Source: Pedobacter sp. BS3 (lineage in GTDB: Bacteria; Bacteroidota; Bacteroidia; Sphingobacteriales; Sphingobacteriaceae). From it: 64,000 nucleotides of DNA. The DNA lies in assembly GCF_008274585.1 (NCBI RefSeq), contig NZ_VTRT01000001.1:992001-1056000 (forward strand), in the 5' to 3' direction. This document shows positions 36,368 to 39,577 of this stretch, one piece after another. A model generated the notes under the pieces. That model did no database searches, had not been told where the DNA came from, and saw nothing but the letters and a program-made list of their open reading frames with translations. Position 1 is the first letter of the stretch. Each line of letters begins with the position of its first letter. Both the position numbers and the translations under genes were made by a program.

Positions 36368-37543
36368 TCAGTGTATTATAACTAGTTTTTTCCCTTCTGC
36401 CCGGCAATTGACGTTACTTAATTTAAGTACCCGGATCACCTGTTCAATAGTCGCGTTGCGTGGTATTTTACCTACAAATTCATCGTTGGATACGGTGCCC
36501 TGGTAAGCCACTTCGAAATCGTACCAGCGGCTTAGTTGCCGCATAACGGTTTGAATATGTTCCCGTTTAAACAGGAAATAACCATTTTTCCAGGCTACGG
36601 CATCTTCGGCGTTGACGTTTACCACTCTTATACCGGATTCTTTGTCCAGCCGGGCCTGCTGACCGGGCCGCAAAAGATGTGAGCTGTGAGACGTGAGATT
36701 TGAGACTTTTACACTGCCTTCAAGTAAAGTTGTACGAATGGCTTCTTCATCGGTATAGGCATTGATATTAAAGTGCGTACCCAATACTTCTACCTCCTGC
36801 TCTTTGGTAGTTACTATGAACGGCACCCTTTTGCCTTCAGCCTTACCACCTTCTACCTTTTTAGCTACCTCAAAATATCCCTCGCCGGTTAACGTTACCC
36901 GGCGCTCATTACCGGTAAATGCGGCAGGATAGGTTAAAGAGGATGCGGCGTTTAGCCACACTTTTGTGCCATCGGGTAAAATAACCCGGTACTGACCGCC
37001 ACGCGGAGTTTCAATGGTGTTGAAGGCCTCAGCCCCGCTCCGCCAGTTGGCGGAAGAGGGAGCTGTTTTTGTTACGGTATAGACCAGTTGACCATCGGCT
37101 GCTTTGGCAATCTTTACACCAGCTTGTTCAGCCAGTTGTCCGTTGGCAGCATCAGTTAACGATATCTTTTTACCGTTGGCTAACGTTAAGATGGCTTTAT
37201 TGCCGCCGGGTTGTATCGCGTTATCTGCAATGTCGGCATCCTGTGTTGTCAATCCCGAACGGCTATTGTAGGTATAAATGGCTAACGTTGCAGCAATAAT
37301 AACGATAGCCGCGGCAGCTATTCGTGGCCATCGTACTACTTTTCTGATAGTTACAGGCCGTTCTCGTTTTATGTTGTTCCAAATTTTATTTTTAATAGCC
37401 TGGTAATCCGGTTTTTCCAGGCTGTCATCATCTTCTGCTGAAATTTGGTTCAGGTACCAGCTCTCTACCCATGCTTTTTCTTCGGGAGTGCAACTGCCTG
37501 CATTATATTTTTTTATGAGTTCTTTTACTCGTTTGTCTTCCAT
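36368..37543 (-). CDS. FecR-family anti-sigma factor (PUL2)
   Basis: 391 residues. N-terminal sigma-binding domain (LIKKYNAGSCTPEEKAWVESWY), one transmembrane helix at about 76-95, FecR domain (FNTIETPRGGQYRVILPDG and LTGEGYFEVAKK, about 170-290), and the C-terminal DUF4974 domain (TIEQVIRVLKLSNVNCRAEGKKLVI) that meets the SusC STN domain. Partner of the sigma factor at 39008-39577, from which it is separated by the inserted Fic gene. Two stretches of interspersed repeat are translated within it: 36675-36706 (NLTSHSSHL, replacing ordinary family sequence) and 37032-37061 (SANWRSGAE). Closely related to the FecR of PUL3. Confidence 0.93.
   Translation of the reverse strand: MEDKRVKELIKKYNAGSCTPEEKAWVESWYLNQISAEDDDSLEKPDYQAIKNKIWNNIKRERPVTIRKVVRWPRIAAAAIVIIAATLAIYTYNSRSGLTTQDADIADNAIQPGGNKAILTLANGKKISLTDAANGQLAEQAGVKIAKAADGQLVYTVTKTAPSSANWRSGAEAFNTIETPRGGQYRVILPDGTKVWLNAASSLTYPAAFTGNERRVTLTGEGYFEVAKKVEGGKAEGKRVPFIVTTKEQEVEVLGTHFNINAYTDEEAIRTTLLEGSVKVSNLTSHSSHLLRPGQQARLDKESGIRVVNVNAEDAVAWKNGYFLFKREHIQTVMRQLSRWYDFEVAYQGTVSNDEFVGKIPRNATIEQVIRVLKLSNVNCRAEGKKLVIIH
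36675..36706. repeat. GAGATGTGA-type tandem word inside fecR (PUL2)
   Basis: AGATGTGAGCTGTGAGACGT followed by GAGATTTGAGAC, a degenerate tandem of the intergenic TGAGATG word (compare 56707-56776). It is translated in frame. Confidence 0.75.
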
Positions 37544-37626: not shown

Positions 37627-37778
37627 GCTCAGGAAATGTATGCTTCGGGCTCAAGGTAAGATTAGTTTGAGCTACAAATTGGCTGACGGTGAGCTTTATG
37701 ATGAAATATGGCTCACTTTATTTATGAATACAGCTCAAATTCAATTTGTTTTGAGCTATATTTGGTTTAATGTTGAGC
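37627..37778. promoter_or_regulatory. Symmetric eight-half-site operator array upstream of the Fic gene
   Basis: Eight pentamers: GCTCA at 37627, 37649, 37711 and 37733, and its complement TGAGC at 37668, 37690, 37752 and 37774. Steps are 22, 19, 22, 21, 22, 19, 22 bp. The first four are symmetric about 37660.5 and the last four about 37744.5, so the region is two identical four-site palindromes 84 bp apart (8 helical turns). The inner pair 37732-37757 has 8-bp arms (AGCTCAAA/TTTGAGCT). The last site lies in codons 2-4 of the Fic gene, and a -7 element lies between sites 7 and 8. Most likely the operator of the Fic protein's own winged-helix domain. That is inference. Confidence 0.75.
37757..37764 (+). 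promoter_or_regulatory. -7 element of the Fic gene
   Basis: TATATTTG, an exact TAnnTTTG match, ending 5 nt before the ATG at 37770. It would start transcription at or next to the ATG. It sits between operator half-sites 7 and 8, so occupied operators would block it. Confidence 0.5.
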
Positions 37779-38825
37779 CTAAATAAAGTGACTGAAGTTA
37801 ATAAAGAGATACTGACTTTTATACGGGAACATCCCTTGTATTCGTCTAAAGAGATCTATTCCGGCTTAAAGCAGGAGATAGGTTATGCTACTTTAAAACG
37901 GATATTAGCTCGTCTTGTTGCTGATAATTTGATAGTCAGGCAGGGCAAGGGCAAAGGGACAAAATATGCCATTAGTTCCGCTTACGGTTTACTCCAGCCG
38001 GTTGATGTAGAAAGCTATTTTAAAAAGGAGCAGGATGATCGCCAAATAAATGACAGCTTTAATTTATCGCTGATCAATGAGGTGTTAAGGCAGGCAAAAT
38101 TATTTACAGCAGATGAAGAACGGCGCCTTAACGAGCTTCATGAAAAGTTTAAATATAACGTTTCACAGTTGTCGCCAACAGAATATAGTAAAGAATTAGA
38201 GCGTCTGGCAATTGACCTGAGCTGGAAGTCATCCCAGATTGAGGGTAATACCTACTCATTATTAGAGACAGAACGGCTGCTAAGAGAAAAAGAAACGGCA
38301 GCCGGTAAGCCAAAAGATGATGCTGTTATGCTCCTGAATCATAAGGAGGCGATTAACTTTATAGTTGAGCATCCGGATTATGTAGTACCATTAACTATCA
38401 GGAGCATAGAAGATATTCATAGCCTTTTGGTTAAAGATTTAGATGTTGACCGGAATATCCGTCAAAGAAGGGTTGGTATATCGGGGACGAATTACAAACC
38501 TTTAGATAATGAATATCAGATTCGGGAGGCCCTGAATGATATGTGCGCATTGGTCAATGAAAAAGAGAATGTGTTTGAAAAAGCTTTGCTTGCTTTGGTT
38601 TTACTTTCTTATATACAGGCATTTGCCGATGGTAATAAAAGAACAACTCGTATTGTAAGTAATGCGATATTAATTGCGAATGGCTACTGCCCTGTCTCTT
38701 TTAGAACAGTAGATTCTATTGCATATAAAAAAGCTATGTTGGTATTTTATGAGCAAAATAACATTAGTCCATTTAAGGAAATATTTAAGTCGCAGTTTGA
38801 GTTTGCCGTTATGACTTACTTTTAA
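37770..38825 (+). CDS. Winged-helix Fic-domain protein lacking the canonical catalytic His
   Basis: 351 residues, plus strand amid minus-strand genes. Residues about 7-70 form a winged helix (NKEILTFIREHP, GYATLKRILARLVADNLIVRQ and a GKGKGTKYAIS wing). The Fic core follows with the inhibitory-helix motif SSQIEGN (154-160, class II type with the inhibitor N-terminal) and the active-site loop QAFADGNKRTTR (283-294). In canonical HPFx(D/E)GNGRxxR the first residue is His. Here it is Gln283 (codon CAG at 38616-38618), and the second Gly is Lys290. AMPylation activity is therefore doubtful. The gene interrupts the usual sigma-FecR adjacency and has its own symmetric operator array. Confidence 0.88.
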   Translation: MLSLNKVTEVNKEILTFIREHPLYSSKEIYSGLKQEIGYATLKRILARLVADNLIVRQGKGKGTKYAISSAYGLLQPVDVESYFKKEQDDRQINDSFNLSLINEVLRQAKLFTADEERRLNELHEKFKYNVSQLSPTEYSKELERLAIDLSWKSSQIEGNTYSLLETERLLREKETAAGKPKDDAVMLLNHKEAINFIVEHPDYVVPLTIRSIEDIHSLLVKDLDVDRNIRQRRVGISGTNYKPLDNEYQIREALNDMCALVNEKENVFEKALLALVLLSYIQAFADGNKRTTRIVSNAILIANGYCPVSFRTVDSIAYKKAMLVFYEQNNISPFKEIFKSQFEFAVMTYF

Positions 38826-39007: not shown

Positions 39008-39577
39008 TCAAAATAAAATCACGGTAAATAAAGCGCCTAATTTTAACCGGAGAATTTTAATGGCGTTGCTCATTTGTTTTTTTACCGTTTTATCAGAGAT
39101 ATCCAGGCTGTCGGCAATTTGTTTGTACGTCATGTTGGCCTTCCGGCTCATTTCAAAAACCTCACGCATTTTTTTGGGAAGTAAGGCAATTTCCTGCTCA
39201 ATTTTGGCGGCGAGCATCCGCTCCCGTAACAAATGATCGGTGATGTTTGCCCCGGCATCTATAAAGTTACCCAATGATGCGATGTAATTAGATTTAACCT
39301 TATCCCGCTCAAGCAAATTCAGTATTTTGTTACGGGTTGTAGCGTATAGGTAAGCGCTTAAAGAAAAGTTAAATTGCAATTCGGTCGCCTTATCCCATAG
39401 CAAGACAAATACATCCTGTACCACGTCTTTTGCCAGTTCATCGTCTTTGGTCATTTTGCGGGCATGCCGGTAAATGATGGCCCAGTACCTGTTGTAAATT
39501 TCAGCGAAAGCTTCTCCATCGCCTGCATGTAACAGCTCAGCAAGTGTATCATCAGTATAAGTACGATATGCTGTCAT
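39008..39577 (-). CDS. ECF RNA polymerase sigma factor (PUL2)
   Basis: 189 residues. Sigma-70 region 2 (AEIYNRYWAIIYRHARKM, DELAKDVVQDVFVLLWDK, about 20-75) and region 4 (LPKKMREVFEMSRKANMTYKQIADSLDISDKTVKKQMSNAIKIL, about 130-175). A Bacteroidota-specific ECF that partners the FecR-like anti-sigma encoded downstream. The Fic gene and an inverted-repeat element separate the two, whereas in PUL3 they are next to each other. Confidence 0.94.
   Translation of the reverse strand: MTAYRTYTDDTLAELLHAGDGEAFAEIYNRYWAIIYRHARKMTKDDELAKDVVQDVFVLLWDKATELQFNFSLSAYLYATTRNKILNLLERDKVKSNYIASLGNFIDAGANITDHLLRERMLAAKIEQEIALLPKKMREVFEMSRKANMTYKQIADSLDISDKTVKKQMSNAIKILRLKLGALFTVILF

Follow-up and report, generated by a model that had tools for sequence, protein, structure and literature searches.

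A four-site array upstream of a histidine-less winged-helix Fic gene in Pedobacter sp. BS3, a very likely autoregulatory operator with copies in phages

Fic proteins canonically carry the motif HPFx[D/E]GN[G/K]R, which includes a catalytic histidine (PMC2686095). In class II members, an N-terminal inhibitory helix with the consensus [S/T]xxxE[G/N] lies upstream of the Fic core. Some members of the family depart from this scheme or combine it with other functions. CccR of Yersinia pseudotuberculosis is a Fic-HTH fusion that represses its own expression by binding to a palindrome in its promoter (PMC9755527). Sofic mediates anti-phage defence by abortive infection (PMC12249575). The degenerate Fic2 of Campylobacter fetus has a core departing from the AMPylation consensus, and its toxicity was abolished by the exchange H184A (PMC5651007). 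A phage has also escaped the host toxin system ToxIN by imitating the element that restrains the toxin, through pseudo-ToxI RNA mimicry (PMC3475682). The locus described here was found in a 64-kb stretch of the Pedobacter sp. BS3 genome (the window) and encodes a Fic protein with a winged helix-turn-helix domain (wHTH-Fic), preceded by an array of symmetric sites.

The locus and its Fic protein

The array consists of two modules of 68 bp, each following the pattern GCTCA-N17-GCTCA-N14-TGAGC-N17-TGAGC (Table 1). A first-pass annotation had described eight GCTCA/TGAGC pentamers in two symmetric groups with a -7 element inside, and all of this held: the eight pentamers are found exactly where it had placed them, both modules are exactly symmetric with steps of 22, 19 and 22 bp, and their centres, at 37660.5 and 37744.5, are 84 bp apart. 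The element TATATTTG, which we take to be a Bacteroidota-type -7 promoter element, would place the transcription start near 37771, an expectation inferred from sequence alone. The claim that the last site lies at the Fic start codon has to be corrected, as the ATG at 37770 is probably not the true start. The GTG at 37788 (codon 7), located 10 bp downstream of the last half-site, is likely to be the real one, because in several orthologues the protein starts at the position corresponding to codon 7. Single pentamers are common, with 133 counted in the window; the four-site pattern is nonetheless unique, since a search allowing up to 3 mismatches in 20 positions returned just these two modules in the 4.8-Mb genome and a reversed control returned none.

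The array is flanked by a FecR gene on one side and the Fic ORF on the other, the latter being followed by an ECF-type sigma gene. The Fic cassette thus sits between the sigma and FecR genes in an orientation opposite to both. The FecR search returned many paralogues (21 matches at E<=1e-50 in the genome).

Table 1. Features of the wHTH-Fic locus of Pedobacter sp. BS3 (positions within the window)
Feature	Coordinates	Strand	Remarks
FecR gene	36368-37543	-	
Distal four-site module	37627-37694	no strand	GCTCA 37627-37631 and 37649-37653; TGAGC 37668-37672 and 37690-37694
Proximal four-site module	37711-37778	no strand	GCTCA 37711-37715 and 37733-37737; TGAGC 37752-37756 and 37774-37778
-7-like element TATATTTG	37757-37764	+	Seen in sequence; between half-sites 7 and 8
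wHTH-Fic gene, longest ORF (351 aa)	37770-38825	+	Pfam Fic 7.6e-14, Penicillinase_R 1.2e-4
N-terminal winged helix, residues 7-75	37788-37994	+	Penicillinase_R match at residues 8-67 (1.2e-4)
Recognition helix GYATLKR, residues 38-44	37881-37901	+	Helix assignment inferred; residues 39-44 covary with the half-site
SSQIEGN, residues 154-160	38229-38249	+	S154, S155, Q156, E158, G159 and N160 invariant in 65 aligned sequences
Fic core QAFADGNKRTTR, residues 283-294	38616-38651	+	Gln replaces the catalytic His; Q283 invariant in 65 aligned sequences
ECF-type sigma gene	39008-39577	-	

Membership of the Fic/DOC family is supported by a domain match at residues 207-301 (Pfam PF02661, 52.8 bits against a cut-off of 24). 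The family motif reads QxFxDGNKR, so that the test for a catalytic histidine is not met. Near full-length matches were obtained at 120 loci (109 distinct proteins, some genomes having been fetched twice, and including L007 and L077, which are merely 31-32% identical). Of these, 117 show glutamine at the place of the catalytic histidine; the remaining three (L072, L111, L192) gave no motif match. SSQIEGN, which we take to be a class II-type inhibitory motif of Fic proteins, passes the corresponding test, with SSQIEG present in 113 of the 120 loci (regular expression) and its residues invariant in the 65 aligned sequences. Invariant in this alignment are S151-Q156, E158-N160, Q283, F285, D287, G288, N289, K290, R291 and R294. 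Such a Fic pocket, conserved yet lacking the usual base, could serve another chemistry or act as a sensor, both of which are inferences. The best PADLOC match was the Fic defence protein SoFic (3.1e-19, no curated cut-off given), and the NCBIfam equivalog cut-off for SoFic was not met (17.4 of 550 bits). A different arrangement is seen at L016 (1501-2574), whose Fic protein has the motif HPFQDGNGR and, at its C-terminus, a winged helix similar to that at the N-terminus of wHTH-Fic.

Conservation of the array and covariation with the recognition helix

As the first-pass annotation had proposed, upstream regions of homologous genes were compared, here those of 45 orthologues found by protein search (59-100% identity, BS3 gene included, near full-length hits only, the truncated hits L009, L026 and L043-L046 being excluded). 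A strict module, matching 19-20 of 20 positions, precedes 35 of these genes, the best match reaching 20/20 in 26, 19 in nine and less in ten; nine loci harbor two modules at 18/20 or better. Among the ten non-strict loci, four (L036, L041, L071, L073) use other half-site letters, five (L038, L064, L070, L074, L075) differ in spacing or arrangement, and L063 has lost a site.

Gene and array also coincide across genomes. In a class sample of 395 genomes, 40 contained the Fic gene (E<=1e-40) and 36 the array (up to 2 mismatches). Manual cross-reading placed the array in 27 of 40 Fic-positive versus nine of 355 Fic-negative genomes, with a reversed control of 0; in one of the 27 (G357), the array occurs solely on a contig other than that of the Fic gene. 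Named isolates of Pedobacter, Sphingobacterium and Parapedobacter are among the hits. Distribution of the gene is patchy, with 19 of 300 genomes positive in the order (E<=1e-60) and nine of 395 in the phylum (E<=1e-40). No neighbouring gene family recurred in more than four of 118 loci, and Fic gene and array thus seem to travel alone. Just one of 229 matching plasmid records, a Bacteroides finegoldii plasmid, exceeded 60% identity, and none of the 18 named-phage records with a match covered 80% of the query.

The half-site letters change with the recognition helix, which ties the array to the winged helix of the Fic protein itself. These pairings were read by eye from the printed sequence and also cover eight full-length hits of lower identity (45-59%, L330-L337), which were examined separately. 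The usual helix, [SG]YATxKR, is paired with GCTCA. Other pairings are SAKTTKR with GGACA (L073), GSTTLKL with GGTC/GACC, where the inner gap is 2 bp wider (L071), GYSTLKR with GCTCT at three of the four sites (L036), LSTVKR with GGTCA/TGACC (L334), ESTIRK with CTGCT/AGCAG (L335), and PTLNR with TCCTATCA (L333 and L337, three sites in the latter) or a partial CCTATCA (L336). YATVKR retains GCTCA at a spacing of 22-18-22 (L330, L331). The correspondence is not complete: at L041, three of the four sites read GATCA and the change of the helix is less clear, and L332 has a GCTCA-like array (18/20) despite the helix LSTLKR. Variation is greater in the inner gap than in the outer steps of 22 bp and amounts to about one helical turn in L333 and L337.

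The test for symmetric sites that lie over a gene's own promoter and track its own HTH is thus met for wHTH-Fic. On this comparative evidence, the array is very likely an operator through which the adjacent Fic protein represses its own gene by means of its winged helix. Binding or repression data are not available. The first-pass annotation had proposed a cooperative autorepression array for this domain; the proposal is supported, with repression and cooperativity still being inferred.

Arrays without a Fic gene in bacteria and phages

Searching 84,980 species genomes for exact matches to the pattern gave at least 119 stretches, against a random expectation of about 0.2 (equal base use, hand arithmetic). 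Fic sequence adjoins the array in 87 of them and is lacking in 32. L125 and L141 turned out to be palindromic tandem repeats and were removed as artefacts, leaving 117 loci, 30 of them Fic-less. The 87 Fic-adjoining loci comprise 73 with a match of at least 300 residues, six cut by the end of the retrieved sequence and eight with a partial gene. When 29 of the 30 Fic-less genomes were searched, a full-length close relative of Fic was found elsewhere in two (L088, L153) and fragments alone in three (L139, L187, L189); distant Fic proteins (24-38% identity) were left out of these counts, and many of the genomes are incomplete MAGs. At the thirtieth locus, L123, a Fic gene has its own upstream array of 22-18-22 spacing and an intact array (1724-1791) follows just beyond its stop codon.

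Part of the bacterial Fic-less arrays are likely relics, because Fic fragments adjoin several of them: L088, L139, L167, L187 and L189 (5 of 30), and four of the nine arrays from Fic-negative genomes of the class sample, the two samples overlapping (L139 and G554 represent the same fragment). These nine arrays have 0, 1 and 2 mismatches in five, three and one cases, a number too small for a statement on neutrality. Judged from our own ORF calls, about 12 of 29 Fic-less bacterial arrays have a gene start within 200 bp, and five arrays (L088, L104, L117, L144, L158) lie between convergent genes. Inspection by eye revealed no neighbour common to the Fic-less arrays, and a profile search of the retrieved loci no other convincing wHTH ORF beside them. 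Some individual cases may be recorded here. At L338 (1493-1560), the two inner half-sites of a Fic-less array are symmetrically changed to CCTCA/TGAGG. Two Akkermansia-type MAGs carry intact Fic-less arrays (L126:2234-2301, L176:3022-3089) and share about 4.2 kb at 92% identity, the arrays lying outside the shared part. Array contigs binned as Woesearchaeota, Azoarcus, Patescibacteria and Propionibacteriaceae (L098, L127, L159, L163) reflect either transfer or misbinning.

Viral contigs gave 37 matches, of which four adjoin Fic and 33 do not; a 23-19-23 spacing control gave one match and a scrambled half-site none. A chance origin of the array was considered and is ruled out by these controls (1 and 0 versus 37) together with its uniqueness in the BS3 genome. 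The 33 Fic-less viral arrays form 11 flank clusters. With three mismatches allowed, each of 29 Fic-less viral records contained one array, half-overlapping matches aside. A tRNA gene lies 6-12 bp from 20 of the 33, and some arrays are situated between phage tRNA genes. Terminase was detected in 13 of 20 array-bearing viral records, including all three contigs above 300 kb, and in 11 of 18 Fic-less ones (two of the 20 tested records bear Fic). The nearest named relatives of the L220 terminase belong to Parabacteroides/Bacteroides phages. For two other array phages, the terminase relatives (below 30% identity) belong to uncultured huge phages, a Microcystis phage and Flavobacterium phages. Cyanophages are also among the nearest named terminase relatives of the array phages; a further protein, from L225, had no match. 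A wHTH query found no such gene in 22 array phage records (no positive control was available, and some records are fragments), and arrays of two other Fic specificities, GGACA and CCTATCA, were not found in the viral contigs.

As to single viral records, the array of L247 (5408-5475) lies inside a phage ORF of 1042 aa resembling SbcC. L222 is a viral contig with a head maturation protease and an array but no Fic, whose neighbours are like those of L002 and L032; at these two loci, array and Fic lie between neighbours resembling those of L222. L226, L230, L248 and L249 are viral contigs carrying Fic plus arrays.

Fic-linked and Fic-less arrays share an extended half-site, WTnnRGCTCA, whose additional positions lie outside the search pattern and recur in all three groups (Fic-proximal, Fic-less bacterial, viral); all 12 extended positions match in 25 of the 33 viral arrays. 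The groups differ in the promoter element. TAnnTTTG occurs within the array in 60 of 87 Fic-proximal versus seven of 30 Fic-less bacterial and two of 22 distinct viral cases (Fisher p for Fic-proximal vs Fic-less 2.8e-5 and 3.2e-7, respectively). Including 40 bp of flank, the counts are 64/92, 7/30 and 2/22 versus shuffled-spacer values of 15.4, 4.5 and 3.2. Its commonest module offset is 55 (45 matches); the BS3 element is at offset 46 (four matches there). Of the distal modules at Fic loci, one in five has the element, and Fic-less copies could conceivably descend in part from such modules.

Whether Fic-less arrays are maintained was addressed with 50 viral loci found through the HNH protein beside the array of one phage, 32 of which (L280-L311) were examined. 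An array matching 19-20 of 20 positions precedes the HNH gene in 15 of the 32 (10 distinct sequences), L296 has an array of unlike sequence, and the other 16 HNH relatives lack the array there; at L307, its expected place falls outside the retrieved sequence. The HNH identities of these 16 range from 34 to 94%, with L293, L306 and L310 at 85-87%. Pairwise differences among the ten distinct arrays amount to 25/900 in core, 71/540 in extended and 578/1890 in spacer positions, i.e. half-sites diverge by 2.8% versus 31% for the spacers, an 11-fold conservation, and two of 20 core versus 45 of 68 other columns vary. A permutation value of 1e-5 was obtained, which is no strict probability given the kinship of the phages. 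Purifying selection thus acts on the arrays of one phage clade, a clade sampled by a neighbouring protein, and the test for conservation by selection in phages lacking Fic is met for this clade only. The Fic-less bacterial pair L168/L183, with flanks about 86% identical, shows 0/20 changes in core, 4/12 in extended and 20/42 in spacer positions; as both were chosen by the exact pattern, this evidence is weaker.

Proposed mechanism, rival readings and known systems

In the proposed mechanism, four wHTH-Fic subunits would bind one four-site module on one helical face, one per WTnnRGCTCA, the subunit number being inferred. The bound subunits would cover the -7 element and the start site and thereby repress their own gene, which is likewise an inference. 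The histidine-less Fic fold, with glutamine in its place, is probably a toxin or defence effector or a nucleotide sensor, toxicity again being inferred. The mostly promoterless Fic-less arrays of phages and some chromosomes would act as decoys that sequester the Fic protein. The occurrence of the sites elsewhere without a Fic gene had been named by the first-pass annotation as a refutation of its reading, and arrays of this kind do exist in phages and some bacteria. They are read here as an added layer (decoys, relics), since promoter element and helix covariation are still present in the Fic-linked copies, and are not taken to refute the proposal.

The decoy reading is preferred because the array recurs in phages at different places, is mostly promoterless and is conserved where tested. 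Taken as a whole, operator plus decoy use of the Fic-less arrays is favoured by a narrow margin, decoy function itself being inferred. Several points speak against decoys. Titration of a repressor should derepress its gene, so that a phage decoy might even raise Fic synthesis; infection of Fic-bearing hosts by the array phages has not been shown; the array is missing from phage relatives whose HNH proteins are 85-87% identical; and viral arrays of other specificities were not found. The effect of a decoy could be either sequestration of the protein or derepression of its gene. A bolder version, which remains conceivable, holds that wHTH-Fic is harmless on its operator array and active once freed, the antidote being DNA. 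Release might follow, e.g. from destruction of the host chromosome by a phage or from loss of the cassette, and phages and former carrier bacteria might keep the promoterless array as a DNA antitoxin.

The strongest rival, a possible one, is a plain autoregulatory operator, with the Fic-less arrays being local regulatory sites for any wHTH-Fic present and not decoys. Helix covariation and promoter position agree with it, as do the approximately 12 of 29 Fic-less bacterial arrays near a gene start and the 20 of 33 viral arrays abutting tRNA genes, which could be regulated. Against it, the -7 element is not enriched in Fic-less arrays (7 vs 4.5 expected in bacteria, 2 vs 3.2 in viruses), some arrays lie between convergent genes or inside an ORF (L247), a common neighbour is lacking, and a full-length close Fic relative is present in just two of 29 Fic-less-array genomes (many of them incomplete MAGs).

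That the Fic-less arrays are neutral relics in general, left behind when Fic cassettes are gained and lost and the gene is deleted or decays, is unlikely. In favour of relics are the Fic fragments beside five bacterial arrays and four of nine in the class sample, the L222 array between neighbours like those of the array-plus-Fic loci L002/L032, and the rarity of the -7 element in distal modules (1/5), through which a left-over distal module would look promoterless. They are contradicted by phage half-sites that are 11-fold better conserved than the spacers in the sample collected through a protein, by the L168/L183 pair (0/20 core vs 20/42 spacer changes), by fewer -7 elements (7/30 vs 60/87) alongside intact sites, and by the 11 separate phage flank clusters.

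It is very unlikely that an unidentified DNA-binding protein of Fic-less bacteria and phages uses the array and merely shares its specificity with Fic: arrays do persist where no close Fic relative was detected, but no other convincing wHTH ORF was found near Fic-less arrays, none in 22 phage records (without positive control), and helix covariation concerns the Fic protein itself. A transcribed RNA structure formed by the nested inverted repeats, suggested by their symmetry and by the location between phage tRNA genes, is all but excluded, as the BS3 array has no Rfam match, six phage loci gave nothing except tRNA, the commonest -7 element at offset 55 of 68 puts the array upstream of the expected start in Fic loci, and phage half-sites are nearly invariant instead of compensating.

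The main interest of the finding lies in the phage arrays. If the decoy reading is true, phages would counter a host protein with a mere 68-bp array of binding sites, and scans of viral genomes for orphan operators would become a route to host defence proteins. Even without decoys, a four-site geometry that persists to protein identities of about 60%, its half-site letters tracking the helix, makes a clean case of winged-helix specificity. Named isolates moreover offer a defined, testable system, namely a Fic family without the histidine that is strongly conserved all the same and has a likely binding site.

In the open-licence literature searched (titles and abstract openings), neither such an array nor a phage operator decoy against Fic was found. 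One of the closest systems is CccR: like it, wHTH-Fic joins a Fic domain to an HTH DNA-binding domain and has symmetric sites in its own promoter, although binding data are lacking here. CccR has an N-terminal Fic and a C-terminal HTH domain and needs the conserved histidine H192 for toxicity (PMC9755527), whereas wHTH-Fic has the reverse order and glutamine at this place. CccR AMPylates FtsZ, is secreted by a T6SS and binds its palindrome as a dimer (PMC9755527); wHTH-Fic, unlike CccR, has four-site modules of 68 bp and array copies in phages. Sofic works through AMPylation, and the small protein AS1, encoded downstream, counters it (PMC12249575), whereas wHTH-Fic lacks the catalytic histidine. 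Fic2 retains this residue and the wHTH-Fic family has glutamine, both deviating from the AMPylation consensus. If the phage arrays are decoys, they resemble the pseudo-ToxI case in that a phage carries a copy of the element restraining a host toxin; pseudo-ToxI is RNA mimicry, whereas the phage array is a DNA operator and a toxin role of wHTH-Fic has not been shown. By analogy, CccR, Sofic and the escape from ToxIN lend plausibility to the operator/decoy reading.
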